A DNA stretch of 25,605 nucleotides from a virus: the IMG/VR virus record IMGVR_UViG_3300048554_000375, positions 1 to 25,605 of that record. One strand, 5' to 3'. This document shows positions 4,926 to 23,364 of the stretch, piece by piece (the stretch's first letter is position 1; each line of letters begins with the position of its first letter). Below the pieces are notes generated by a model. It was not told the origin of the DNA. It made no database searches and worked only from the letters and a program-made list of their open reading frames with translations. Made by a program: the position numbers and the translations under genes.

Positions 4926-6560
4926 TTAATATCCTCCTCCACCCGTTGAAATTAATTCGTCCTCGCTGAAATACTCGAAGTTGCCGATGCAAAAATATCT
5001 ACATACATCAACAAAATCTTTGGAAAAATCCTTCAAGTTTCCAGGAGTGTATGCCTGAAGACAACTTATGAGATTTTGACATTCATCCGAAAACATCAAT
5101 TTAGGCTTATTATCCAAATCCATCGGTTTATCCCGATCCCATGCGAGTAAATTATTAATAGCCTGAAGTCCTGTTTCGATGTCTAACGCTTCGGCCGGCT
5201 GAACGATTATATCTTCATCCATTAAATCATCGATAATGTTAGAAGATCCTTCTGACTTCTGATAGCTCGCCGCTCCCAAACGAGGGTCGATTATGCGGAT
5301 GACCTCACTATCCCCACATACCTTCTCCATTCTTCTAATCTCATCGGCATAATCCGCCAGGCCGTACCCGTTCGGTTGGGCCGCCTCGCCGGCACTTAGC
5401 TTGTCCTTTGTCAGATCAATCCATCCTCCCCATGTGTCGAAGTCAGGAAACTCCTTAACCGCCCAGGCGACCCCGTGAGGATCGATTGCAAAGAGGACCA
5501 TTGTCCAAGGCTTCGCTCCCGCCGGATCAATTGACATTACCCAATTGGCATCTTTGAAATCGGGGAGTTTGTCAGATGTTACGAAGTTTTTATCGGTCAA
5601 ATTAGGGAAAATGGCCCTAGACTGCCTCACAGGCACTCCATATGCCCGACAAAGAATCGTTTCCCTCTTCTCCCCCTCTAATTGATTCTTCATCGCCGCC
5701 CAGCCGCCAAAGGGATTCGCCGCTGTATGGAAATAAACCACAGAACTGGCTTTGCGGATGGGCTGTTGAACGAGGGGGACTTCTTCGCCGTCTAATAGAT
5801 CCGCTTTCGTTGACTCTATGGTGCGGGCTCCCGTGAGCATCGATTTTACTACGCTGTTCCATCCGTCTACTGCGGTGAAGGAAATTAATCCACTTGCCGG
5901 TCGAACTACTCCATCATGTGGACTCTCATGCGATCTTGTTACGCATCTAAATCTTAGCGTATTCACCCACGACATTGGCACCAATTCGTCAGCCCAAAAT
6001 CCAATGTTATGGGTGCCGGTTACCGGCGGAGAGGGACATCCGATTTCTCCACCCTCAATTGTGCTGATGTCCTGACTCCAATTTCTAAAGATGCACTCGG
6101 ACCGGTTGGGCAAAGTAAACTTTGAGGCAGTAAATCCATTACGAAGGCTGTACATTACATATCCGACCTTACCTCTGCCTAACGATTTTAACTCTTTTGG
6201 GAGGTATTTGAAAACGAGTTTTTGCTGAAATTGGATCGAATTTGCCGATGTTTCTGTTAAACACCAAATAATTGTGCCTGGATTCTCGACTAAAGTCTGA
6301 ACAACTCTCTTCGCACAAAGCTCGGACTTGCCAGCCCTATTCCCTCCCATAAGCAGAATTTCCGAGTGAGTCTTTAACTGCTCATCCGCTAACTTCCATG
6401 TATCAAGTTCAAACCCATGCCGGTAAGGATCATCCTTCTCGAGCTTGATCGCTTCCTCACGCTTTTCCCAATATGCGAGGATTGATTCGGGGCTCATGGA
6501 CAGCATCTCTGATTTGGTCAGAGGCGGTAAGGCGGGGTGCGGTGTCCAGGTAAGTGGCAT
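4926..6560 (-). CDS. terL: Terminase large subunit
   Basis: The 544-residue protein is the DNA-packaging motor ATPase and nuclease. Walker A is GGNRAGKS (residues 72-79), and Walker B with catalytic Glu is IGFWADE (186-192). The RNase H-fold nuclease has Asp345 (MSIDPAG), Asp425 (IIDPRLGAAS) and Asp518 (FVDVCRYF). The Gly-rich C-terminus (STGGGGY) supplies the ribosome site of the next gene. The ATG at 6560 lacks a clear Shine-Dalgarno. A TTG at 6656, preceded by the G7AG6 tract, would add 32 residues (MAARRSPRPIVSHKK...). The shorter form is preferred because it begins MPLTWTPHPALPP, a plausible terminase start. Function is secure; the start is not. Confidence 0.93.
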   Translation of the reverse strand: MPLTWTPHPALPPLTKSEMLSMSPESILAYWEKREEAIKLEKDDPYRHGFELDTWKLADEQLKTHSEILLMGGNRAGKSELCAKRVVQTLVENPGTIIWCLTETSANSIQFQQKLVFKYLPKELKSLGRGKVGYVMYSLRNGFTASKFTLPNRSECIFRNWSQDISTIEGGEIGCPSPPVTGTHNIGFWADELVPMSWVNTLRFRCVTRSHESPHDGVVRPASGLISFTAVDGWNSVVKSMLTGARTIESTKADLLDGEEVPLVQQPIRKASSVVYFHTAANPFGGWAAMKNQLEGEKRETILCRAYGVPVRQSRAIFPNLTDKNFVTSDKLPDFKDANWVMSIDPAGAKPWTMVLFAIDPHGVAWAVKEFPDFDTWGGWIDLTKDKLSAGEAAQPNGYGLADYADEIRRMEKVCGDSEVIRIIDPRLGAASYQKSEGSSNIIDDLMDEDIIVQPAEALDIETGLQAINNLLAWDRDKPMDLDNKPKLMFSDECQNLISCLQAYTPGNLKDFSKDFVDVCRYFCIGNFEYFSEDELISTGGGGY

Positions 6561-6662
6561 TAGTTCGATTTTAGCAGACTGGAGGGCGAGTGGTACGCAA
6601 TTGGGCAAAATTTTTTTATGGGACACAATCGGTCTCGGTGATCGGCGGGCCGCCAAATCCGA

Positions 6663-6888: not shown

Positions 6889-7398
6889 ATGCCTACTGAA
6901 AAAAAGAGAGTTGCGATAGAAGCTGATAATCTTCCGGCTAACCTGATAGTTGAAGAGTCATGCCCAGCGGTCTACACCGCTCAAGGTTTATTCGATAAGA
7001 GACCAGGAGACTACGCCAAGCTGGTTCAAATGCTAACAGATGGAATACCGGTCACTCGGATCAAGAAAGAACTAAAGGTATCCCATAACACTATCGCTGT
7101 GGTTCGGTCCCGAGAGAAAGAGGTAATCGAAGCATCGAAGAAAGTAATGAGAGGATTGATCGGCCATGCTTCACAGCTTGCAGTCGAAAAGATGATCGAG
7201 AAGCTGGATAATGATGAAATACCTAACGGAGTCCTACCAATCGCTACCGGCATTCTAATCGACAAGCATCGCCAGTACGAAGGTGAGCCTACTCAGACTA
7301 TCGAAGTGAAGAAATCTCTTAGCCTGGATGAGATCCGAGCCGAGCTTGCCAATCTGAAGGATGAAAAAATCATCGAGGCCGAAGTCACCGATACATAA
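6889..7398 (+). CDS. HTH protein, candidate terminase small subunit
   Basis: The 169-residue protein is the only plus-strand gene. A helix-turn-helix spans about residues 45-70 (LVQMLTDGIPVTRIKKELKV then SHNTIAVVRSREKEV). The C-terminal half has a helical segment (QLAVEKMIEKLDND) and VLPIATGILIDKHRQYEGEP, a pattern seen in HTH proteins next to terminase genes. Small terminases recognise the packaging site and hand DNA to the large subunit. Placement divergent to terL is unusual, since the two are normally co-directional. No Shine-Dalgarno precedes the ATG, only a T-rich stretch. A transcription regulator acting on the adjoining divergent region is an equal alternative. Confidence 0.6.
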   Translation: MPTEKKRVAIEADNLPANLIVEESCPAVYTAQGLFDKRPGDYAKLVQMLTDGIPVTRIKKELKVSHNTIAVVRSREKEVIEASKKVMRGLIGHASQLAVEKMIEKLDNDEIPNGVLPIATGILIDKHRQYEGEPTQTIEVKKSLSLDEIRAELANLKDEKIIEAEVTDT

Positions 7399-7423: not shown

Positions 7424-7537
7424 CTAACCTTGTTCTTCTTTTTCCTCGAACGGGATCTCATAATCGACAGCCTGTTTATCATACTTCAGATAATATTTGA
7501 AATATTCGGATAAAGATAAACCGACATATAATTCCAT
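7424..7537 (-). CDS. Possible 37-residue small protein
   Basis: A short minus-strand frame encodes 37 residues starting MELYVGLSLSEYFKYYLKYD and ending IPFEEKEEQG. It has a Tyr-rich helix and an acidic tail, a composition typical of real small phage proteins. It converges on the plus-strand HTH gene and ends 25 bases from it. No Shine-Dalgarno is visible. It would need read-through from the replication operon or a local promoter. A small hairpin (GAGAG...CTCTC, 7407-7423) follows the stop without a T-run. Confidence 0.35.
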   Translation of the reverse strand: MELYVGLSLSEYFKYYLKYDKQAVDYEIPFEEKEEQG

Positions 7538-7540
7538 ATA

Positions 7541-7610
7541 TAGCGTTTAAATCGCCACACAGGACGCTGAGAGCGTTTTTAGACTCCAACCTATATAATC
7601 TACAACGCTA
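7541..7610 (+). terminator. Nested hairpins with T-run, possible terminator of the plus-strand transcript
   Basis: TAGCGTT (7541-7547) and AACGCTA (7604-7610) form a perfect 7-base outer inverted repeat. Inside it ACGCT-GAG-AGCGT (7564-7576) forms a tight hairpin followed at once by TTTT (7577-7580). On the plus strand this resembles a weak intrinsic terminator 180 bases after the HTH gene. The stem is only 5 base pairs. Confidence 0.35.
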
Positions 7611-7708
7611 GGGTACAAGACCGCCAATCCCGCCATTCCTCTGAATGCCCGATTTGCTGTGATTGTCAGGTTAATATGATTATACCTCTTTGACGGCATG
7701 AGATTTAT

Positions 7709-7735
7709 AACGAGTGATTGGTTTGAACGAGTGAT
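7709..7735 (+). repeat. Direct repeat AACGAGTGAT x2 (third partial copy at 7790)
   Basis: AACGAGTGAT occurs at 7709-7718 and 7726-7735, a 17-base step. Its core CGAGTGA recurs at 7790-7796. Iteron-like repeats in a gene-free segment next to a candidate small terminase could be protein binding sites (packaging or origin), but only two full copies exist. Confidence 0.4.
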
Positions 7736-7802
7736 ACCTGTTCTGCCGGTTAATCGGTTAAGCTGATGGATCGGTTTTAATCTTCTAATCGAGTGAGCTT
7801 GT

Positions 7803-7936
7803 AGGCTGGCAATGTAGTCCACCTGGTACGGCCGCCTAAAGCGGTTGGCGGACTGGTGCGTAAGCTTTAGCTTTTGGGCCGGCTTACGGGCCAAAGCATT
7901 AGTCCGAAGGAGGACTACTAACAGCCTGTATTTTTT
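7803..7936 (+). ncRNA. Candidate structured RNA ending in a T6 tract
   Basis: Plus-strand pairing is dense. AGGCTG (7803-7808) pairs with CAGCCT (7922-7927), and GTAGTCC (7814-7820) with GGACTAC (7912-7918). CACC (7820-7823, sharing one base) can pair with GGTG (7855-7858), and CCGCC (7832-7836) with GGCGG (7847-7851). GTAAGC (7860-7865) pairs with GCTTAC (7882-7887). The loop of the last stem, GCTTTTGG (7870-7877), can pair with CCAAAGC (7891-7897), making an H-type pseudoknot. The outer stem is followed by GTA and TTTTTT (7931-7936), as in intrinsic terminators. TAGTCC at 7900-7905 competes for GGACTA. No match to a known RNA family was recognised. The strand is chosen from the T-run. Confidence 0.4.
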
Positions 7937-7955
7937 CATGTTGGAGAGTGGGCCG

Positions 7956-7986
7956 AATTTAATAATATATATATTATATATATATA
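7956..7986. repeat. 31-base all-A/T tract with a 14-base palindrome
   Basis: Every base from 7956 to 7986 is A or T, and TAATATATATATTA (7963-7976) is a perfect palindrome. It lies between the structured block and the end of the helicase gene. It may melt easily (origin unwinding element), form a cruciform, or serve as a -10-rich promoter region; none can be decided from sequence. Confidence 0.5.
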
Positions 7987-8026
7987 GGGTTCGGACTACT
8001 ATTATTGGTTCAGTTAAATAGTTAAC

Positions 8027-9184
8027 CTATTCACCTTTTAGATTTAATCGCAAAGAGTAGGTAGTTTGATTGCTCGGACCAGCCTTTTCGATGTCAATTT
8101 TGTCCTTAATTTCGGACAGAATCTTGGCAAAAATGTGCTTATCTATTCGATTATTTGTTTGCTCTTTTAGGAGGGTAATTGCTCGCTCTCTTCCGCAAAT
8201 CGGCTTATCTTTTAACAGTTCGAGGAACTTATCGCATAAAGCCTCATTTATCTTTTTTTGGATTGTGGAGGTTTGCCCTGGCTTTCTGAACTTTGCCTCG
8301 AGGTCGGGCTTATGTCGGAAAAGGGGGAAGGTATCGGCAGAGAATTCGAGGACTTTAGGAGGTGAGAATGGACAGTTTCGGGAGGTGGTTTCGAGGACTA
8401 AGTGTTCCTCTTCCTCGTGAGCGGTGAGGGTTAGGATAGCATCGGGATCACGGGCAAAGACACCTGAACCACTCGCTCTGTCGATATGATCAGTTTCTGA
8501 CTTGTTACCCTTGGAGAAGTGGTGGGCAAAGACTATGGCTGCACCTGTTTCCTCGGAGAAGTCTTCGATTAGATTGACAATTTCGCCTACCGCCTTGGCA
8601 TCGTTTTCGTCTATACCGGTTGCCAGCTTGTAGTATGGATCGAGGATAATTAGGTCGTAGTTTCTCCTTTCCACTCGGATCTTGGTTAGGAGATCCAACA
8701 ATTCAGTCCGGTAACCTCGTAAAGGCCAATAGTCTAACCGAGGGTTTAGTGGCATCTCTCCTTTAAACATGGCCTTAGCTACTCGCTTTATTCGATCTGT
8801 ACCGAAGTATTTCTTTAGCTCGAAGTCTAGGTATAGGACCTTACTCTGCTTAACCGGCATCCCCAGCCACGGCATCCCATTGGATGCGGCGATGGCCAAG
8901 TTAATGAGTGACCATGTTTTACCGGCTTTACTTGAGCCTGAGATAATCATCTTACATCCTTCATGCAGACATCCCTCGATAATCTCCTCTAGCTCGTTCT
9001 TCGGGTTAGTGGCGAACTCCATGCACTGACCGAATGACATGATATCGGGTAGTGGTTTGGGATCGTCATTAGTCACCTCGATTGATCGGTTTGGCATATT
9101 GGTGACAGTTGGGCTGTCTAGCATATATTCCAGTTCTATGGCCTTAAGCTGTGCTTTATAATATGGGTCATTTTTAGGTCTCAT
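8027..9184 (-). CDS. RepA-like RecA-fold replicative helicase/ATPase
   Basis: The 385-residue protein has a RecA-type ATPase core (AAA_25/RepA group). Walker A is GSSKAGKT (residues 83-90), with VLYLDFEL (116-123) and Walker B LIILD (178-182). AHHFSKG (220-226) acts as the motif H/sensor region, and SGSGVFARDPDAI (238-250) follows. The C-terminal third is helical, possibly a winged-helix region (GRERAITLLKEQTNN). RepA-family proteins form hexameric DNA helicases, and this one sits beside a primase gene. It is the last gene of the operon and overlaps the previous small gene by 11 bases. No DnaB-type N-terminal domain is present. Confidence 0.85.
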   Translation of the reverse strand: MRPKNDPYYKAQLKAIELEYMLDSPTVTNMPNRSIEVTNDDPKPLPDIMSFGQCMEFATNPKNELEEIIEGCLHEGCKMIISGSSKAGKTWSLINLAIAASNGMPWLGMPVKQSKVLYLDFELKKYFGTDRIKRVAKAMFKGEMPLNPRLDYWPLRGYRTELLDLLTKIRVERRNYDLIILDPYYKLATGIDENDAKAVGEIVNLIEDFSEETGAAIVFAHHFSKGNKSETDHIDRASGSGVFARDPDAILTLTAHEEEEHLVLETTSRNCPFSPPKVLEFSADTFPLFRHKPDLEAKFRKPGQTSTIQKKINEALCDKFLELLKDKPICGRERAITLLKEQTNNRIDKHIFAKILSEIKDKIDIEKAGPSNQTTYSLRLNLKGE

Positions 9185-11049: not shown

Positions 11050-11369
11050 GGCCTATTGATTTTGTAAATATTAAGCATGAACTCGTATAATTTGACACAA
11101 TCAGCTACATGACCCTCTCCAATATTTCTAATGGAGATAAAAGCGGATTCAGGTGTATTAGCTTTTCCTACGAACTTAAAAAAATCAAAGACTGAGGCGG
11201 AACTAACCCCGCAATGTTCACATTCCTTTTTAGATGATTCTAATTTCCTTAATATATTTAATGTAACCTTTTTAGGTACTACCCATGTCTTGCCATCTAT
11301 CATTAATTTTTCACCATGCCATTTGGAAAACGGAATTGTTTTTAATTTCTTTTTGCGTTCTTTATTCAT
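11046..11369 (-). CDS. Hypothetical protein with CxxC motif
   Basis: The 107-residue protein is not recognised. It begins MNKERKKKLKTIPFSKWHGE, then GKTWVVPKKVTLNILRKLES, and has one ECEHCG pair near residues 49-54 with a further Cys at about 91. A single CxxC is too little for a classical zinc finger unless it dimerises. Its ATG overlaps the polymerase stop by one base (TGATG), and its stop overlaps the next ATG (ATGA). Its place between polymerase and nucleotide kinase suggests an early-stage role. Confidence 0.7.
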   Translation of the reverse strand: MNKERKKKLKTIPFSKWHGEKLMIDGKTWVVPKKVTLNILRKLESSKKECEHCGVSSASVFDFFKFVGKANTPESAFISIRNIGEGHVADCVKLYEFMLNIYKINRP

Positions 11370-13123
11370 CAGTAATGCGTTTTAATTTCCCCCTCTGCCG
11401 CCAAGGGTAGTCCTGGCATATAGAGAGGTTCTTCGGTTAATAGTTGGATCATTAAGTCGAGTGCCGCCTGTCCCTCCGATTCGGCAACTTCAACAGTTAC
11501 GGAATCGTGGACATGAAGTACAACGGGGAGACCAGCGGCTTCTATCTTCAAGAGGGAATCCGCCATAATATCCCGAGCGGTTGCCTGGACTAAGTTCTCA
11601 ACAAGGAGTCCGCCGTATAATTTCATCGACCCTTGCCCTCTTACCTTCTGACCGGTCAATTCCTTGCCGTCATCCTTTACATTAAAATATCGGATCAGAT
11701 TCCCCGATCTCATGTTCATAATTGCACACTCGGGAGTCTGCTTTGCTTCCTCGCGGATATGGTCCTCGCACTTCTTCCATAGCTCGACAATCTTGGGATT
11801 CTGATTTCTAAAATCTTTGACCTGTTTTCGGCTCTCAGCATCGGTCATATTTAATTTACCACCGGTTAAAGCCTGTGCCACTTGGCCGAATTTCTTCGGT
11901 CCGCATCCGTAGCCCAAGCCCAACACACGGGCTTTACAGAGATGTCGAAGTTCGGGGGCTAAGTCCTTCATCGGTTCGTCCTCGTTATAGAGTCCAGTCG
12001 CTCGGCCATGTGCCTCGTACAAGTCTATCCCGCCTCTGACCAAACCTAGGAAATCAAAGTCCCCGCAAAGATATGCCAACACCCTCGGCTCGATTTGCGA
12101 GAGGTCGGCAGAAACCATGACTCGGCCTTTACCAGGTGTCAGACATTTCTTGGCCGATGTACCTTCCACCTCGTCCCGAGGAATGCCCTGAAAGTTTAAT
12201 CCACCCGCTCCACTCCATCGACCGGTATGCGGAGCACCGCAGTATTTCAGACGGGTGGAAACTCGATGATCGGGGCGAACTCGTAAGATCATACTAATAT
12301 AAGTCTGCCTCGCTTTATTCGCTTTTCTCCACCTTGTCATTGCTTCCAAGATTGGGGCGTACTGCGGATTCCTAGCCTTCCAAAGAAGCAGTTCCGAATC
12401 TCCCTCCTGAGTAGACTTCGGAGGTTCGACATTCTGCATTTTTAAGTAGGCGGCCATAGCAACAGTTGAAGTTGGTTCTCCTCCACCTTGACCAACCCAA
12501 GGCAGAAAGGATTCAACCTCCTTCATAATCTCCTCAGTCTTATTAATATAGTCCTGGCAAAGTTTCTGATTAATTGCCATCCCTCGGCTTGCCGTCCTTC
12601 GGGTAAATGCGGACAATAGAAATTCTTTTTCGGGGAACGATGTTTTCAGTTCATTATATATCCGAATACACGCTCGACTATCGCCCAATGCATACTCCTT
12701 AAACGATTCATTCTGAAGGATCTCTTCGGGTCGAAGTCCGCTCATTTCATTGCGGGCATCCTTGTTCAACTCCTCGCCAAATAGTTCCTTATAGCATCCC
12801 GCCAATGACCTCGGCAACTGATGCCAGCTTGCCATATCCGCCGTGCAGATCCATTCCTTCGGAGTAAACTGTGGCATCTGCCCCCTCGCCATTGCCATTC
12901 GACAGCATACTGAATCGAACTCGGCATTATGTGCGCAGATCGATTGTCCGTTTAGAATATCGACCGGTAAATCCCTTGGATCTCCTACCCACTCAAATCC
13001 ATCATCGGCTACCAGGCTGACAATAGTTACTCTGAAATCGGGGTGCTTGGCATATCGATCCAATCCCATCGTGGCCACGCTGTACTGCTTGGACCAAACT
13101 GTTTCCACATCCAAGGCGATCAA
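11369..13123 (-). CDS. Family A DNA polymerase with 3'-5' exonuclease
   Basis: The 584-residue replicative polymerase has an N-terminal DnaQ-like exonuclease: Asp5-Val-Glu7 (LDVETV), HNAEFD at 65-70, and Tyr144...Asp148 (YALGD). Polymerase motif A is DLSQIEPR (340-347). The O-helix is R393xxxK397xxxL401xxxY405 (RHLCKARVLGLGYG). Motif C is HVHDSVTVEV, with His539-Asp540-Ser541. The residue matching E. coli Pol I Phe762 is Leu401; viral polymerases have Phe, Tyr or Leu there, and Leu has been associated with temperate or slow-replicating phages. Ser replaces the usual Glu of the HDE motif. No 5' nuclease domain is present. Its ATG overlaps the preceding stop by 4 bases. Confidence 0.95.
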   Translation of the reverse strand: MIALDVETVWSKQYSVATMGLDRYAKHPDFRVTIVSLVADDGFEWVGDPRDLPVDILNGQSICAHNAEFDSVCCRMAMARGQMPQFTPKEWICTADMASWHQLPRSLAGCYKELFGEELNKDARNEMSGLRPEEILQNESFKEYALGDSRACIRIYNELKTSFPEKEFLLSAFTRRTASRGMAINQKLCQDYINKTEEIMKEVESFLPWVGQGGGEPTSTVAMAAYLKMQNVEPPKSTQEGDSELLLWKARNPQYAPILEAMTRWRKANKARQTYISMILRVRPDHRVSTRLKYCGAPHTGRWSGAGGLNFQGIPRDEVEGTSAKKCLTPGKGRVMVSADLSQIEPRVLAYLCGDFDFLGLVRGGIDLYEAHGRATGLYNEDEPMKDLAPELRHLCKARVLGLGYGCGPKKFGQVAQALTGGKLNMTDAESRKQVKDFRNQNPKIVELWKKCEDHIREEAKQTPECAIMNMRSGNLIRYFNVKDDGKELTGQKVRGQGSMKLYGGLLVENLVQATARDIMADSLLKIEAAGLPVVLHVHDSVTVEVAESEGQAALDLMIQLLTEEPLYMPGLPLAAEGEIKTHY

Positions 13124-13856: not shown

Positions 13857-14013
13857 CTGCACATTCCTCCAATAATTCCTCTTCCCGCTTGGCCTTTGCC
13901 AAAGTCATGGCATCGGGTTCAAGACCAGCTAACTCCCTCATCTCATCGATGTCATCTTGATTGACATCTAGGAAGCTGTCCCGAGGTTCTAGTAGCCAAT
14001 ATTTATTCTCCAT
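13846..14013 (-). CDS. 55-residue acidic hypothetical protein
   Basis: A short gene starts MENKYWLLEPRDSFLDVNQD and continues with an acidic helix (DDIDEMRELAGLEPDAM) and a charged tail (KREEELLEECADEV). It overlaps the exonuclease end by 11 bases and the ribbon-helix-helix start by 11 bases. Its last codons provide the GGAGGA ribosome site of the next gene. These overlaps and the composition support it as real. It has no recognised function. Confidence 0.65.
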   Translation of the reverse strand: MENKYWLLEPRDSFLDVNQDDIDEMRELAGLEPDAMTLAKAKREEELLEECADEV

Positions 14014-14821
14014 GACTTCTAGGATCGTAGTTCTTTAAGGACCGCCATAACTGACAAAGGGCGGTGAAATCGACCCATGCTTTGGCGAGGTCTTCGGGGG
14101 AATATTTAATTACCTCGAACCTACCAGGCTCAGTCGAACTGATGTAGCAGTTAGCTCCGTGGACGCTATGCCCCAACACCGCCTCTTCGCCCCAATAGGT
14201 TGCGGCATAGGCCGCTATCTGATGGATTTGGAAGTCGTAACTGGTGACCTTGACCTTCGGCTTAGTCTTACGGGTTTTCCAATCTAAGATAAACTTAGCA
14301 CCTTCCGCTCCTCGTCCGACAATATCGACAGTACCGGCGAATCCATGATTCGTATTAACCAGCATCTTCTCAAACTCGATGAAGTTAAGGCCATGATCCT
14401 GTTTCCAATCAAGGGCGGGCTGAATATACTCTAGTAGTTCATCGGGTATATGCTGACCGGTGAAATAAGCTTCAATCGCATCGTGAACTTTCGTCCCAAA
14501 GTCTGCCGCTTCTTCGACAGGCTTTTCATGCTGAACAAGGCATCGGTCTGCATAGTTTTCAAAACTCTCGTCAAGCTTCGCCGGATTATCAAATGCTATA
14601 CGAAGTAGCTGGTCCTGTTTCCATCGCTCTAACCCAGGCTTGGCAAACAGGCCAAGAAGAGTTGTTACGGATGGAAATAGTCCATGCTTCTTAGCATCCC
14701 TAAGAGTGGTATTCCGTTCGCCGTCTCCTTTAGCTCGAGGCATCGTATGCATGGCCTTTCCCTCTCGGGTGTACCAATGTCCACCTCCGCCTCGCTTAGG
14801 TTTTTCTGTTAGAATAGCCAC
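14003..14821 (-). CDS. PD-(D/E)XK exonuclease, RecB/Cas4-like
   Basis: The 272-residue protein has the RecB-family nuclease motifs in order: an early His in GTKVHDAIEAYF (residues 109-120, His113), Asp166 in FAGTVDIVGR, Asp180-Trp-Lys182 in FILDWKTRK, and QIAAY (201-205) as the Gln-x3-Tyr motif. Enzymes of this group in phages act as 5'-3' or recombination exonucleases. It may degrade host DNA or prepare ends for recombination with the SSB and RuvC-like proteins encoded upstream. The start is GTG at 14821 with a perfect GGAGGT ribosome site 7 bases upstream, the strongest in the operon. The Gly-rich N-terminus (KRGGGGHWYTREGK) is unusual. Confidence 0.88.
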   Translation of the reverse strand: MAILTEKPKRGGGGHWYTREGKAMHTMPRAKGDGERNTTLRDAKKHGLFPSVTTLLGLFAKPGLERWKQDQLLRIAFDNPAKLDESFENYADRCLVQHEKPVEEAADFGTKVHDAIEAYFTGQHIPDELLEYIQPALDWKQDHGLNFIEFEKMLVNTNHGFAGTVDIVGRGAEGAKFILDWKTRKTKPKVKVTSYDFQIHQIAAYAATYWGEEAVLGHSVHGANCYISSTEPGRFEVIKYSPEDLAKAWVDFTALCQLWRSLKNYDPRSHGE

Positions 14822-15163: not shown

Positions 15164-15225
15164 AGCACCATGTCAGTTACTACTGCCGCCCATCCGATCA
15201 TTAGTAATATAGCTATCGGATTCAT
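15160..15225 (-). CDS. 21-residue hydrophobic microprotein
   Basis: A tiny gene begins MNPIAILLMIGWAAV and ends VTDMVL, forming one possible membrane helix. Its ATG overlaps the SSB-like stop (TGATG), and its stop overlaps the DnaA-like start (ATGA). Exact coupling on both sides, identical in style to the neighbouring genes, leaves no spare base in the operon and is the reason to call it. Without it the two flanking genes would be separated by 61 untranslated bases with no ribosome site. Function unknown. Confidence 0.6.
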   Translation of the reverse strand: MNPIAILLMIGWAAVVTDMVL

Positions 15226-15911
15226 CAGAAAGGTACATTTGTGGACTGAGGTCCGGTGAACTGAGTTCCCATCGTTGCCTGTTGTGGTTGAGGGGCGGGC
15301 TGTTGTACGGGTTGCTGTACAGGTACTTGCTGGGGCTGATCGACTGTTACCTGAGTGGTCGCTTGCATCGGCTGTTGCTGAATCGGAGCTTGCATCGGTT
15401 GAACAGGTTGAACTACAGGAGCATTCTGAACCGGTGCGGGTGCTTCGTCTCCGCTCGGGATGACAAATCTTGACCTGTCAGGTATTTGATTTTCATTTCC
15501 CGCCATGACCGGCATGATGGCTGTGATATCTGCATACTCTCTGCCTTTTTTGCTGGTCTTGTGGATAATGTTCAGAGTCGCTCCTTTGCCCACCATTGTT
15601 TCAGTGTCAAAGCCCGAAAAAGGCATAGTGCCGTTCCAGCTTGTTAAAGTCTTAAAAAGTTTCGACTTTTCGTTTAAGCTGATTGTCATCTCCCCTGTCT
15701 GAATCATTGTCCCATCGGAAAGACCAAAAAGGAAACGGCAGAAGTTCTTCGTTTCGATGACAGATGGATCTTCGTAGGAAGGACTCTGAATATTCATTGA
15801 GTCCTTAACTGCCAAACAGACGGCGAAGGTTTGCCCTTGAGGGGCGAGTGTAGTTAGTGGCCAACCTGTGATCGGTCCGCCTCCGTTAGATGATTGCTGT
15901 AATATAGCCAT
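15225..15911 (-). CDS. SSB-like protein with Gln/Pro-rich tail
   Basis: The 228-residue protein has a compact N-terminal part of about 150 residues rich in beta-type segments (QTFAVCLAVKDS, FCRFLFGLSDGTMIQTGEMT, GKGATLNIIHKTSKKGREYA). It is followed by a low-complexity Gln/Pro/Val tail and the terminus STNVPF. That layout, OB-like core then disordered linker then a final Pro-Phe, is like bacterial SSB (ending in IPF), although the tip here lacks acidic residues. Location in a replication operon next to exonuclease and resolvase supports a single-strand-binding role. The fold is inferred; no signature residue proves it. The ribosome site is weak. Confidence 0.6.
   Translation of the reverse strand: MAILQQSSNGGGPITGWPLTTLAPQGQTFAVCLAVKDSMNIQSPSYEDPSVIETKNFCRFLFGLSDGTMIQTGEMTISLNEKSKLFKTLTSWNGTMPFSGFDTETMVGKGATLNIIHKTSKKGREYADITAIMPVMAGNENQIPDRSRFVIPSGDEAPAPVQNAPVVQPVQPMQAPIQQQPMQATTQVTVDQPQQVPVQQPVQQPAPQPQQATMGTQFTGPQSTNVPF
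15560..15568 (-). promoter_or_regulatory. Consensus DnaA box in the SSB-like gene
   Basis: The minus strand reads TTATCCACA, a perfect DnaA box, about 400 bases upstream of the orphan DnaA domain IV gene. It is one of two perfect copies in the window (the other at 1413). It lies in coding sequence, so it may be incidental. Confidence 0.25.
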
Positions 15912-17388: not shown

Positions 17389-20300
17389 TTACCGAAATCT
17401 TTCGGATAACTTAGCACCCGCTGAAGCCGCTGGAGCCATGAACCGATTACCAGGCATAGCTGGTGCTTGGCGGGTAATGCGATTGGCGGGTTGGCGGGTT
17501 GGTGCTTTGGAGTCTGAGGGCATGAACGAAGTCATCCAGTCAACATTTTGTTTTGCTAACCGCTCGTCCTGTTTAGCTCTCTTTTTTTCTGACCGGTCTA
17601 AACGCTTCTCTAGCTTGGCATTTAACTCGCCTGTGTTTTCTTCGAGTTGCTTGGCCGCTTGGCGGAGTCCTGACTGAGCGGATTTAAGTTCACGAATGAA
17701 CTTGTCGTACTCAGCCCTAATTCTGTCCACTCTTTTACGCTTCCCTTGCGTAAGGGCTTGGTAATCTTTTGATTCGGCCCCCTTGAGGAAATCTCCTGCA
17801 ATCTTCGCTTTAAGTCCTGTTGCTTCTCGAATTCTTTTGATGTACTCATTTTTCTTACGATTTTTAAAATTGTTTATTACATTCTTGTAATCTGCTCTCT
17901 CAATATATGTTGAATCATATTCTCGTCCATAAATGGTTGCGTCATAATTGCCAAAAGATTCAGTAATTAAATTATTAAGGTTACTCGGATCAATTGGCTT
18001 TGTCGAGAAATCCTCTAAAAACATTGGATTAACATCAATAACTAATCCGTTTGGACGCTGAGATAAATTCGCTTCATGCCCAATTGAGGACAAATGTTCT
18101 GCAAAAGTTTTTAAGTTGGGATTATCAATCGATGCACCTTTTATAAAAACAGAAAAAGTATCCGGGGTCGGTGTATCTGAAATCTTAAACAGACTTGCCG
18201 CTTGAGCGGCTTGCAAGAAAGGCTCTCCCAACATTGCCAGGTAAACTTCATGCAATTCTTTTGGCATACTGTCCATAGGTATACGAATATTCTGACTCAT
18301 TGCCCCTTCAAATGTCCCCTTACCTAATTCAAGCCGAGTGATTTCTTTATTTGTTTGAGTAATCGCCTGAGCCAATTCTGTTAGTAAGGAAGGTTTATCA
18401 ATTTTCTTACCGGTCTTTTTATCTTTCTTTCTACGGTTAGTAAGCAGTTTCATGCTCACCCTTACCATATCATCAGCCGCTTTTATATTTAGACTCTCGC
18501 CAGTCTCTAGACTCTTATCATATAACTCCGCAAACTTCTTACCGTTTTCATGTAACAGTGTTACAATTTCCATTGTGCCGAATTTACTTTCTCTAAACTT
18601 TACAGCTAATGGTGAAAGAATTTCGACTACCCGAGGATCTCTTAGAACATCTTTTGTGAAGATAGGAAGTCCTGTTTTAGAATCCTTTCCGACTTTTATC
18701 CCGGCATCTCTTAACTTTTGAGCGGCTTTGCGGAATGCATTGGCATAAGCATCTCCCTCAAAGATTTCTTCTTCGGTCATGCTCTTACTTCTTTTCATCT
18801 TACTCTCTGCACGGGTCTGTACCCAGCTTGGTGCTTGCAGTTGGTAAGACTGAAAAGGTCCGTTTGGATCGTTTGGTCTTTGCTGGTTTATATGATCCCG
18901 CAACTTATTATAAAACCTTGCGACTACTTCGTATAAAACTGGATACTGACCAAATGCTTCATCGGGTATATCAAATGATGCGGCCACTTGGCGGTCATTT
19001 GTTGGAAGTGGCGGGCTATCGATATCCCCGGCAATAAATTTAAATGTCTGCCCAAAACTTCCAACTTTTCGAGCTTCTTGTTTACCGAAATCTCCACTGA
19101 ATACATCAGCCACAGATTTTTGAACGACTGCTGGGGTAACACTTGGATCTCCTCGTTCAAACTCTGACATGATGCTTATCATTAGTTCAGAATTATAATT
19201 CGGGTCTGCTAAAGGCGAAGTTGCGGCGGTCATGTCCTTCACGATTTCCCCCTCTTTTCCTAAATGCTCGGGGAAAGAAATACTCATCGCCTCGGAACTT
19301 ATTTCGTACCAAAACCTATCTCGTAGTGTTCTGCCTTCTACGCTTTTCCAATGAGCTTCATTGGGTGGGACCATATTAATCCCTTTTGACTGCATATCCT
19401 CAAATGCTCGATTTGCCGCTGGTCCACTTTCATCGAAAGATTCTTGCATGATTCTGTCAATGTCAGATTGTTTAACCCCGAGGTTACCTATTTTTTGATC
19501 CAAATCGAGTTCCAAGAAAGGCTTTCCATTTGGTCGGGTTACCGGCATACCGGCGGGCTTGTTACCGATAAATCGTTCCTGAGCAGGTATGCGTTCAAGA
19601 ATTTCTTCAAGTGGTCGAGCATATGTATTATCGCTCGGCATGAAGAGTTTCTGCCCGCTTTCTAATTCGTTACGAATCTGATTAGCTGTTCGATCTGAGT
19701 CCCTAGACTTGGTAATATCCTGTGGATTTACATACTCCCGTCTTTGACTAAACTCCTGTCCACTTTTATCGAAACCATAGAATGGGTTCTGCTCGGGATT
19801 ATCTGCTACCCCTGATAGACGAGAACCATCCTTTAAATAGACTGGGCTTTTAAATGTTCTGACTTGAGCAGATGTATCCCTTGAAGATTTTGGTCTAAAG
19901 TAACTACCAGGTGAACCTTCAAAGGTTTCGGTTGGCATGAATGACCTTTGCCCCTCGGATCTTACTGAACCAGGCATTAAGTTCCGCCTAATTCGATCAA
20001 TTACTACATTACGAGTGTTACCAGTTGGGTTCATTGTACCTATGCGATCCAATCGGCGGGATCGATAAGTACCTAAAGTATTTGCTTTTCTCTCACCAAG
20101 ATTGGAAAGTGTTGGATTGTCCGCAATTTGTGCCTTACTGACTGGACCGAATGCGGCATTAAGAAGATCCCTCTGCTTATTGGTTATGCCACTTTGTGGG
20201 TTTTGATCTCCATTTAAAATACCTTTTGCATGGTTATCCAAATATTTCTCAAACATGGATTCAAAGTTTTTACGAATCACTGCGGGGTCTGACCCCCCAA

Positions 20301-23300
20301 ATGCCTGACCGACTTCGTTACCTCTTCGCTTGAGTAGGAAATCAATATTCTTCTGTAGCTTATCAAGGGATACTGTATCCAGTATTACATTCCCATCTTT
20401 GGTAATGGTTATTCCGTAAACCAAACTATCCCGATATCCGCCTTTTAAACTCTTGTACTTCCTACCGCCTTTACCGGTGGCCGCATAGTAGAATAAGAGC
20501 ATTTGATTTCCAATACCCTCCCTACCCGCCTTGCTGGCTTCCCGAAGAAAGTTTATCTGCGATGGATTATATCGATTGGTCCTTGAGAGTTCATCAATTA
20601 TCGAATCGTCAATAAACTTGCCTGAGCCTGTGAGTTTTCCGTCTGCGGTTTCAGATAAAGTAACATGACCCTCGGGCAGATCATTTTCTCGGGCTTCGAT
20701 TGAATCGATTAAATCTCTTGCGAGTGCCTGGTTTGCCTGTCTTGTTTCGGAAGGAGAAAATACTTCGGGCTTTTTGGTGATCGGATTAATTTTTATATTC
20801 CCATCTTTATCCGTCTTAAAGTGTCCGCCGTTATTAAATACCTGTAGACTCTCAATCGGGTCGCTTGGGGAAACGATAACAGTATCCAGTTCGTCATCCG
20901 TTGTTACCGGTCTTTGTTCCCTAATCTCCGTCTCCGATAGTCCAATAGTATCATCCTCGTACCGCTTGACCAGGTTGTCTAATTCTTTGGACGATTTGAA
21001 AGGTTTGCCGAGTATGCCGGTCCCTTTGACAAGAGATCCGTCTGCATTGGTTGCCATACCGAGCGAATGCATTGCTTTACGCATAAATCCTCCGCCCGTA
21101 ATCCTATCGCCTAGGCTTTCAATTATTTTTTGAGTGCCTTTATAAATGGAAGACTGCCCTACCCGCTTACTCGTTTTACCGGTTATCATTCTATCTGCCA
21201 CAATCTCGGCAAATAGTTCCCGGGCAAACTGCTCAGGAGTTTCATATGCCTGTCTCGCTTTTTCAGAAACATTTGAATTGGCAAGTTTATCGATGTAAGT
21301 TTTTTGAAGCTCTCGGAATTCGTCATTTAATTCGTAGTGCTTCATGCCATTCTCATCGGTTGTAATCTTTGGCTTACCGGTAGATTTATCTATCTGTGTA
21401 AACACTCCGACTTTCCCTTTTTCAGGATTCCCGAGTAATTCCTCTAAGATGTTTGGGAGCAATCCATGCCTTTCAACATGGTGGCCGATTTCATGGGATA
21501 AAATGGTACTCCAAGGATTATTCTTGTCTGAATTTATTTCGATTACACTGTCAGAACCATCGACATAATGCGCACCCATTGGCCCGTCCTTACCCATCGA
21601 TTTAACTTTTATAACTGCATCCGGATAGAACTGAGAAAATGTAGATACCGCAACTTGCTGATCTTTTGCCAGCTTTTCAAAGTCCGCCCTTTCTCTTTGG
21701 CCTAAAGATTGCTTGTGGTATTCCACATCTCCCAACTGCTTGGCAATTAAATCAGATTTATTTGCGTACCTTAAAAGAGATCCGTATCCAAGACCAGCGG
21801 CAATAAATGGACTTGATGCCCCAATAGCCGCCGCCGCTCCCTCTCCTCCACCAATCATGTAACCAAATGTACCAGGCAATGCCGCCCCACCGACAGCCGC
21901 CTTTGCGACATTGGCGGTTCCTGTGGCTACCCTTCCGAGTCCCGTTCGATCAATCGTCCTAGCGGCATTGCGAACGAGGCTAGGCAGTTCCCTTGCCTGT
22001 GAAAGGAGTGGTTTTAATTGTGAAGCCGCATCGCCGAGAAGTAAATTATCAGTTCTATCGACAATAACCTCGGCAAGTTTTGGATTGTCTGCCGGCAATG
22101 CACCAATTCTTTTAAAGAACGGCATTGAGGTTTCTGCCATTGTTAACTGCTTCCCGAGGATTGCAGAACTTCTTCCCATTGAGGCTATAGCCCTTGGGCC
22201 TAAGTAGGCCGCCAGTGCGTTTATACCACTACCCGTCAAACTCGCCTCCCCATCTGTCATATCAGTAGCTAAACCGACTGACCCAAAAATAACTGTTTTA
22301 GCGGCGGTTTCACTTAGACCGGATTTCATTAGAAAAGTGGTAGCCTCTTCGATCCCCGCTCTTCGGATAAACTCGGTTACATTCCCGACATATTCTCCAG
22401 CCCTACCCATGCCTTGCATTGCCTTACCAACAACTTGATTGGTCATTCCGGCTTTTGCTTTTTGCTTGGTATATGGATTTAGTTTCTCGAGGATGTCGTT
22501 TACTTCCTTAGTCGCTCCTTGAAGGGCATCGTCTGCGGTTTTAACTAAATTTTTGGGTGCATCTGCCGCTAAACGATTTAATTGATTACTGTACAGAAAT
22601 TGCTTTGACTGTGCTTTCTGTAAATCTTGTGCAAGTTTCTTGGCGGTCCCCCGGCGGAGTAGATTAGTGGTTGATCGCAATCCGGTAGTAGTTGCCATTG
22701 CTACGGGATTTTCTAATTGGACAAATAATGAGGCCGCAAGTGCTTGCTTCTTATCCGGTTCAACCCGACCCATTTTAAGGTCGTTATACATATCAATATC
22801 GCCAAACTTTTCGGCCATGATTGATGCCCCATCATCGATAAATGACTGAGTTGCCATCATGTCCCCAATAAATTCAATCGATGCATCGATGTCCTCATCC
22901 CCCTCGCCTACCATTTTTGAAAAAGCCATTTTACCAGCATCTCCGATGGATTTATATCCGCCATAAACTTCAGCCACCGTTTGATATGCAGTAGCTTTTC
23001 GAGATTTACCTTTAGGCACTTTTACGCCAAGTTTCATTCTCATTTCTGCTGGCATACCTTCAATTGCATCCCTTTGGAAATTGTCAAAAGGCTGATCAAC
23101 AATTGAACCTAATCCCTCGAAAACTTCCCCGGCGGCTTGTTTAAATGCATCATATAAACCGGTATCAGAATCCTGGTCGAAGTATCCATTTTTATAAGCG
23201 GCTCGGGCGAGATCTTTATTTCCGGCCTTATATGCCTTTATCATTTGATCGGGTGGAACTACTTGTTTTAAAATCTCAAATGTGGATTTTTCGTTGGGTG

Positions 23301-23364
23301 CTTCGTCCCCTTCGACTAAAAAGTCTACTCCAAGGGATTTGCTCTGTATTCTATACTGTCCCAT
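17389..23364 (-). CDS. Giant internal virion protein with zinc metallopeptidase motif
   Basis: The 1991-residue protein is the last of three virion genes and has the position of the T7 gp16 ejection protein. Its early part (about 1-540) is helical with small-residue-rich segments near 485-530 (AAVGGAALPGTFGYMIGGG), possibly membrane-active. HEIGHH at 624-629 (ILSHEIGHHVERHG) is a zinc peptidase HExxH motif, with a likely third ligand in FARELFAEIVADR (713-725). A middle alpha/beta region follows (910-1130). The short motif FMP with Ser/Thr and an acidic residue occurs at 1142, 1241 and 1947, plus RFMAP at 1974; these could be cleavage sites. The C-terminus is a basic coiled coil (1880-1940). 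No lysozyme motif was found. It resembles the polyvalent proteins that phages inject with their DNA. Confidence 0.8.
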   Translation of the reverse strand: MGQYRIQSKSLGVDFLVEGDEAPNEKSTFEILKQVVPPDQMIKAYKAGNKDLARAAYKNGYFDQDSDTGLYDAFKQAAGEVFEGLGSIVDQPFDNFQRDAIEGMPAEMRMKLGVKVPKGKSRKATAYQTVAEVYGGYKSIGDAGKMAFSKMVGEGDEDIDASIEFIGDMMATQSFIDDGASIMAEKFGDIDMYNDLKMGRVEPDKKQALAASLFVQLENPVAMATTTGLRSTTNLLRRGTAKKLAQDLQKAQSKQFLYSNQLNRLAADAPKNLVKTADDALQGATKEVNDILEKLNPYTKQKAKAGMTNQVVGKAMQGMGRAGEYVGNVTEFIRRAGIEEATTFLMKSGLSETAAKTVIFGSVGLATDMTDGEASLTGSGINALAAYLGPRAIASMGRSSAILGKQLTMAETSMPFFKRIGALPADNPKLAEVIVDRTDNLLLGDAASQLKPLLSQARELPSLVRNAARTIDRTGLGRVATGTANVAKAAVGGAALPGTFGYMIGGGEGAAAAIGASSPFIAAGLGYGSLLRYANKSDLIAKQLGDVEYHKQSLGQRERADFEKLAKDQQVAVSTFSQFYPDAVIKVKSMGKDGPMGAHYVDGSDSVIEINSDKNNPWSTILSHEIGHHVERHGLLPNILEELLGNPEKGKVGVFTQIDKSTGKPKITTDENGMKHYELNDEFRELQKTYIDKLANSNVSEKARQAYETPEQFARELFAEIVADRMITGKTSKRVGQSSIYKGTQKIIESLGDRITGGGFMRKAMHSLGMATNADGSLVKGTGILGKPFKSSKELDNLVKRYEDDTIGLSETEIREQRPVTTDDELDTVIVSPSDPIESLQVFNNGGHFKTDKDGNIKINPITKKPEVFSPSETRQANQALARDLIDSIEARENDLPEGHVTLSETADGKLTGSGKFIDDSIIDELSRTNRYNPSQINFLREASKAGREGIGNQMLLFYYAATGKGGRKYKSLKGGYRDSLVYGITITKDGNVILDTVSLDKLQKNIDFLLKRRGNEVGQAFGGSDPAVIRKNFESMFEKYLDNHAKGILNGDQNPQSGITNKQRDLLNAAFGPVSKAQIADNPTLSNLGERKANTLGTYRSRRLDRIGTMNPTGNTRNVVIDRIRRNLMPGSVRSEGQRSFMPTETFEGSPGSYFRPKSSRDTSAQVRTFKSPVYLKDGSRLSGVADNPEQNPFYGFDKSGQEFSQRREYVNPQDITKSRDSDRTANQIRNELESGQKLFMPSDNTYARPLEEILERIPAQERFIGNKPAGMPVTRPNGKPFLELDLDQKIGNLGVKQSDIDRIMQESFDESGPAANRAFEDMQSKGINMVPPNEAHWKSVEGRTLRDRFWYEISSEAMSISFPEHLGKEGEIVKDMTAATSPLADPNYNSELMISIMSEFERGDPSVTPAVVQKSVADVFSGDFGKQEARKVGSFGQTFKFIAGDIDSPPLPTNDRQVAASFDIPDEAFGQYPVLYEVVARFYNKLRDHINQQRPNDPNGPFQSYQLQAPSWVQTRAESKMKRSKSMTEEEIFEGDAYANAFRKAAQKLRDAGIKVGKDSKTGLPIFTKDVLRDPRVVEILSPLAVKFRESKFGTMEIVTLLHENGKKFAELYDKSLETGESLNIKAADDMVRVSMKLLTNRRKKDKKTGKKIDKPSLLTELAQAITQTNKEITRLELGKGTFEGAMSQNIRIPMDSMPKELHEVYLAMLGEPFLQAAQAASLFKISDTPTPDTFSVFIKGASIDNPNLKTFAEHLSSIGHEANLSQRPNGLVIDVNPMFLEDFSTKPIDPSNLNNLITESFGNYDATIYGREYDSTYIERADYKNVINNFKNRKKNEYIKRIREATGLKAKIAGDFLKGAESKDYQALTQGKRKRVDRIRAEYDKFIRELKSAQSGLRQAAKQLEENTGELNAKLEKRLDRSEKKRAKQDERLAKQNVDWMTSFMPSDSKAPTRQPANRITRQAPAMPGNRFMAPAASAGAKLSERFR

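Follow-up and report, generated by a model that had tools for sequence, protein, structure and literature searches.

The window, meaning the whole stretch of DNA analyzed here, is a 25.6-kb IMG/VR virus record (25,605 nt) whose main genes lie on the minus strand, the exception being an HTH gene. A gene-free segment, 7538–8026, lies between this gene and a helicase gene. The genes that matter to the locus are the following:

4926–6656, minus strand: Terminase_6N-like large terminase gene
6889–7398, plus strand: HTH gene encoding a candidate small terminase of 169 aa; it opens the plus-strand segment at whose end the RNA described below lies; conserved in 154 viral loci
8027–9184, minus strand: AAA_25 (RepA/DnaB-like) helicase gene (Pfam PF13481, E 2e-28), convergent to the RNA and its invariant neighbor
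11369–13123, minus strand: family A DNA polymerase gene
14003–14821, minus strand: exonuclease gene

The name "small terminase" is unproven for the HTH gene since its protein received no useful Pfam, PHROG, or NCBIfam assignment, and among cultured phages nothing like this protein or the DNA of the segment was found. Elsewhere on the minus strand, 15225–15911 is similar to the NGO0469 family of phage replication-initiation proteins (E 2e-18, under the family cut-off), and 17389–23364 encodes a 1991-aa protein for which an NCBIfam search returned zero matches.

The first-pass annotation described 7538–8026 as gene-free and heavily structured, and both halves of the description are borne out, the one by the lack of any supported gene and the other by folding, with a z score of −4.8 at 7803–7943. 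A minus-strand open reading frame at 7547–7939 (130 aa) is uninterrupted in the window and of considerable length in several relatives, as a small protein gene would be. However, its substitutions number 192, 192, and 253 at codon positions 1, 2, and 3 (relatives above 85% identity) versus 1,789, 1,239, and 6,530 in the helicase gene, its indels are mostly not multiples of three, and the frame is broken in many relatives. With frame-breaking indels and none of the codon periodicity for which the first-pass annotation had suggested a check, this gene was ruled out and has practically no chance of being real. A conserved-looking 37-aa minus-strand reading at 7429–7539 has stops in relatives and is therefore not a gene.

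Related contigs were collected by means of their HTH and helicase proteins. The part from ~7540 to ~7940 is conserved in ~50 related viral contigs, with some blocks 93–99% identical, and it is made up of the following features, to which the hairpin that adjoins it is added:

7564–7580, plus strand: hairpin ACGCT-GAG-AGCGT with T5 after it, lying at the 5′ edge of the conserved unit and found in most close relatives
7591–7650, plus strand: 5′ conserved block (AATCTAC..GACCGCCAATCCCGCCATTCCTCTGAATGCCC), with means per ten bases of 87–99% identity to the window in 43–44 contigs
7634–7647, plus strand: hairpin CATTC-CTCT-GAATG
7651–7789, plus strand: mosaic middle region of exchangeable and duplicated modules, its blocks shuffled among relatives
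7795–7807, plus strand: conserved junction GAGCTTGTAGGCT at the entry to the 3′ domain, common to close and many distant alleles
7803–7927, plus strand: 3′ structured domain, seen in folding, covariation, strand preference, and covariance-model matches
7803–7808/7922–7927, plus strand: P1, the outer stem
7814–7823/7909–7918, plus strand: P2 stem
7850–7859/7896–7905, plus strand: P3 stem
7862–7873 and 7874–7894, plus strand: inner hairpins of the 3′ domain
7931–7936, plus strand: T6 tract after P1, a likely transcript 3′ end
7953–7994, no strand assigned: a second hairpin, located after the RNA and short of the helicase stop codon; its stem varies and its loop, TATATA..AGGG, is AT-rich

Measured per ten bases, identity to the window reaches 98–99% at 7621–7640 and 95% at 7791–7810, which exceeds most of the helicase coding flank, while 7651–7730 is variable. 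The outer stem, the nested stems, and the T6 tract lie where the first-pass annotation had drawn them. The limits 7803–7936 need widening: conservation starts at ~7540 and peaks at 7591–7650 and 7790–7810, so the conserved unit is larger. Total RNA length differs by more than 100 nt among relatives, and the arms of the core, the 3′ domain, are also mosaic. A search of IMG/VR with a DNA pattern from the 5′ block yielded 55 contigs, which bear the HTH and/or the helicase gene of the same phage group. The host and prophage search gave 82 pattern matches in genome contigs, with the closing stem in 0 of the 80 loci checked, and no match to the RNA was found in bacterial genomes.

On the plus strand, 7803–7943 folds at −64.2 kcal/mol compared to −45.4 ± 4.0 kcal/mol for dinucleotide shuffles (z −4.8; 0 of 200 shuffles), whereas the minus strand is weaker (−48.6 kcal/mol, z −3.0); the whole 489-nt segment has a folding z of −3.6. 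Across 20 distinct alleles, P1 and P2 are paired in 98.3% of cells. Cells in which both sides of a P1 or P2 pair have changed number 31 versus 9.1 expected in shuffles (17 versus 6.3 in the type-A alleles alone), and P2 covariation is 0.300 versus 0.056. The shuffles preserve column make-up and not relatedness, so these figures are not probabilities; slid controls, which do preserve relatedness, give far lower values. Three adjacent P2 pairs each occur as four or five standard pair types in the 20 distinct alleles, and the stem is constant at GTAGTNNN/NNNACTAC, with NNN free to change. In type-A alleles, P3 covaries from GC to CG, GU occurring as an intermediate, and the hairpin at 7862–7873 has an extension of one pair in which UA is swapped for AU. 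The 3′ domain ranges from a simple hairpin of 56–58 nt to a branched structure of 152 nt, and all allele types share AGGCT...GTAGT...ACTAC...AGCC.

The strand is indicated in two ways. Folding is better on the plus strand in 13 of 13 distinct alleles below 90% identity (L039 having been turned to the forward orientation), and the A1 helices contain 13 G-U cells and 0 A-C cells, which fits a plus-strand RNA and is unexpected for double-stranded DNA. Compensatory changes in homologues, a check that had been suggested for the candidate, occur together with an absence of protein-coding signal, two of the things looked for in a conserved structured noncoding RNA, in which a discrete transcript would be the third. 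The evidence for a conserved plus-strand structured RNA is strong, and we consider its existence very probable.

Smaller structures surround the core. In distant relatives the 5′ border hairpin is replaced by one of varied sequence, also with a T-run, and the hairpin with its T5 is possibly a partial terminator. Distant relatives also carry GAGTC-CTCT-GACTC matching the hairpin at 7634–7647, with two double compensatory changes and an identical loop, and the two are probably equivalent in place. The consensus fold of the 5′ half in distant relatives has no strand preference. Two long-range pairings were rejected: CTCCAAC (7584–7590) with GTTGGAG (7940–7946) is missing from other alleles, and CTACAACGCT (7600–7609) with AGCTTGTAG (7797–7805) is broken without compensation in several. 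The H-type pseudoknot proposed earlier at 7860–7897 can be drawn, with 92.6% of type-A cells paired, but it needs gaps and bulges, is imperfect in several alleles, and shares AGC (7863–7865) with a competing local hairpin that is kept in 10 of 10 type-A alleles. It is not recognizable in the other allele types and belongs at most to one of them, type A, rather than to the family in general. Beyond the RNA, the stem of the hairpin at 7953–7994 diverges completely in sequence among phages yet stays complementary, its AT-rich loop persists, and its strand preference is mixed.

With a covariance model of the 3′ domain, a single copy is detected in the window and in each of four near-complete relatives (37–38 kb), opposite the helicase strand and on the same strand as the HTH gene. 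In L322 and in L135 that hairpin also gives a single faint echo on the reverse strand, as is usual for near-palindromes. In the near-complete relatives the RNA always lies beside the 3′ end of the helicase gene, which is ~350–490 nt away from the RNA anchor wherever a contig is long enough to include the two. The HTH gene, in turn, is 98 to ~2500 nt upstream of the RNA across relatives, and the added length is a shuffled array of small plus-strand genes. This means that the RNA ends a plus-strand segment, and this segment of HTH gene, array, and RNA is the only one in an otherwise nearly one-directional genome. The RNA persists where the upstream genes differ completely.

The array is likely a hot spot of accessory or anti-host genes. 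Its genes (60–211 aa) recur in varied orders, some with shared leader peptides (L013, L068, L108, L129, L008, and others); inspected by eye, one product seems XF1762-type-like and another ribbon-helix-helix-like. Between the HTH gene and the RNA, L136, L138, L142, and L143 have imperfect repeats TTGGCAGGTTGGC(A/T)GTGTCAG with inverted parts, which are possibly iteron-like or REP-like.

At the 3′ end, at least five T in the 8 nt past P1 are found at 18 of 29 distinct allele ends, leaving 11 of 29 without a good T-tract, and a consensus scan for terminators gave no call at the window site. Judged from its place, its stem, and its T-tract, which is missing in some alleles, the simplest reading is that the transcript would end at the RNA. 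A search for sigma-70 promoters found none above chance, and a candidate promoter of the RNA's own, TATAAT at 7594–7599, was rejected, being without a −35 element and lost in some alleles.

Our best explanation, to which we give about an even chance, is a plus-strand structured noncoding RNA that serves an accessory-gene operon as its 3′ end, both terminator and stable RNA. The RNA would be ~350–400 nt long, from roughly 7540 or 7590 to 7936, and would end the sole plus-strand operon, in which the HTH gene is followed by the variable small accessory genes (in relatives) and then the RNA. Its 3′ domain is a branched hairpin in which P1 and then the T-tract would stop transcription short of the helicase gene, into which it would otherwise run antisense. 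Termination would spare the rest of the one-directional genome antisense transcription and leave a stable RNA, whose 5′ block and P1/P2 junction may be recognized by a host or phage protein or RNA. The middle modules and the core arms appear to be exchangeable. The RNA is more than a terminator, since a 60-nt block of up to 99% identity is not needed by a mere terminator.

The same 5′ block, with its 98–99% stretch conserved above most of the coding flank, could also point to an independent trans-acting phage RNA, synthesized separately or cut out as its own molecule and working through that block or in a ribonucleoprotein, with the terminator only its end. The keeping of the fold over very different arms and of the RNA itself when the upstream genes change completely would agree with this, but the poor showing of an own promoter speaks against it, and we regard it as a lesser though real possibility. 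The locus may instead act as DNA, as a replication origin, a set of single-strand initiation hairpins, or a packaging site, given that it is single copy, has a fixed place beside a replicative helicase gene, adjoins an AT-rich hairpin, and belongs to a phage that encodes both a helicase and DNA polymerase A. The strand-specific wobble pairs and the better plus-strand folding fit an RNA better, however; GC skew has no clear switch beyond gene direction, and the contig ends of the four near-complete relatives share no single point, so a DNA site is quite unlikely. Finally, loops with CCUCYUU could make the RNA an anti-Shine-Dalgarno small RNA that blocks translation of mRNAs, and CCTC[CT]TT does occur 1.23 times per close allele versus 0.10 in shuffles. 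But this count is inflated by shared ancestry, the motif is absent from most distant alleles, and it is no more unpaired than other pyrimidine runs; with the enrichment limited to close alleles, such loops were rejected and the idea is very improbable.

To return to the noncoding RNA at the operon end, one could speculate, with a small chance of being right, that it represents a new phage RNA class with a constant chassis (the 5′ block, the GAGCUUGUAGGCU junction, and P1/P2) and arms and modules that can be swapped. Specificity, for instance in superinfection, in incompatibility among related phages, or against a host factor, would reside in the arms, and the RNA and the upstream accessory genes would work together. 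To our knowledge, few structured phage RNAs are of such size, and any new family offers a way into phage gene control or phage–host conflict. This RNA is present in the near-complete relatives examined, within an uncultured phage group with many public contigs, and its position is the end of a hypervariable array of small genes, a type of array in which one would expect anti-host genes. Also, its fold is clear enough for direct probing.

A search of the window and eight relatives with different alleles against Rfam 15 (GOLLD, ROOL, pRNA, introns, and RNase P included), as had been suggested at the outset, gave zero matches above the gathering threshold; the best sub-threshold matches in the window were far under the cut-off, and no matching RNA was found in the literature. 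Together with the compensatory changes and the missing codon periodicity of the minus frame, this supports the original idea of a new plus-strand phage RNA. It is previously uncatalogued, single copy, and kept by a whole group of uncultured aquatic (marine) phages.

Among known systems, the analogy to the packaging RNA (pRNA) of phi29 finds no support. The two have no more in common than the broad notion of a structured phage RNA; there is no Rfam match, an ordinary large-terminase gene is present, and synteny gives no link to packaging genes. The RNA stays with the helicase 3′ end and not with the HTH or terminase genes: up to ~2.5 kb of other genes can separate it from the HTH gene. Phi29 differs in both terminase and polymerase type from the present phage, whose large terminase is Terminase_6N-like and whose polymerase belongs to family A. 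Integron attC sites offer a possible parallel, being structured, varying in arm length, and lying next to a variable gene array. There is one attC per cassette, whereas the RNA is single copy per genome and at the array end; no integrase was identified in the present phage, and the strand evidence favors an RNA over an attC-type site. Like intrinsic terminators and 3′UTR-derived small RNAs, it has in most alleles a GC-rich stem and then a T-tract, on the strand that codes for the upstream operon, but it differs from them in its 57–152-nt stem structure, its conserved upstream block, and the weakness or absence of the T-tract in more than a third of alleles. GOLLD and ROOL are large, ornate RNAs, often associated with phages or prophages, and we know of no established function for either. 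The present RNA is smaller (350–400 nt), has no Rfam match to either, and, unlike them, lies next to a helicase gene, where an accessory operon ends. GOLLD and ROOL are themselves orphan structured RNAs discovered by comparative genomics (PMC12286853, PMC2864571).
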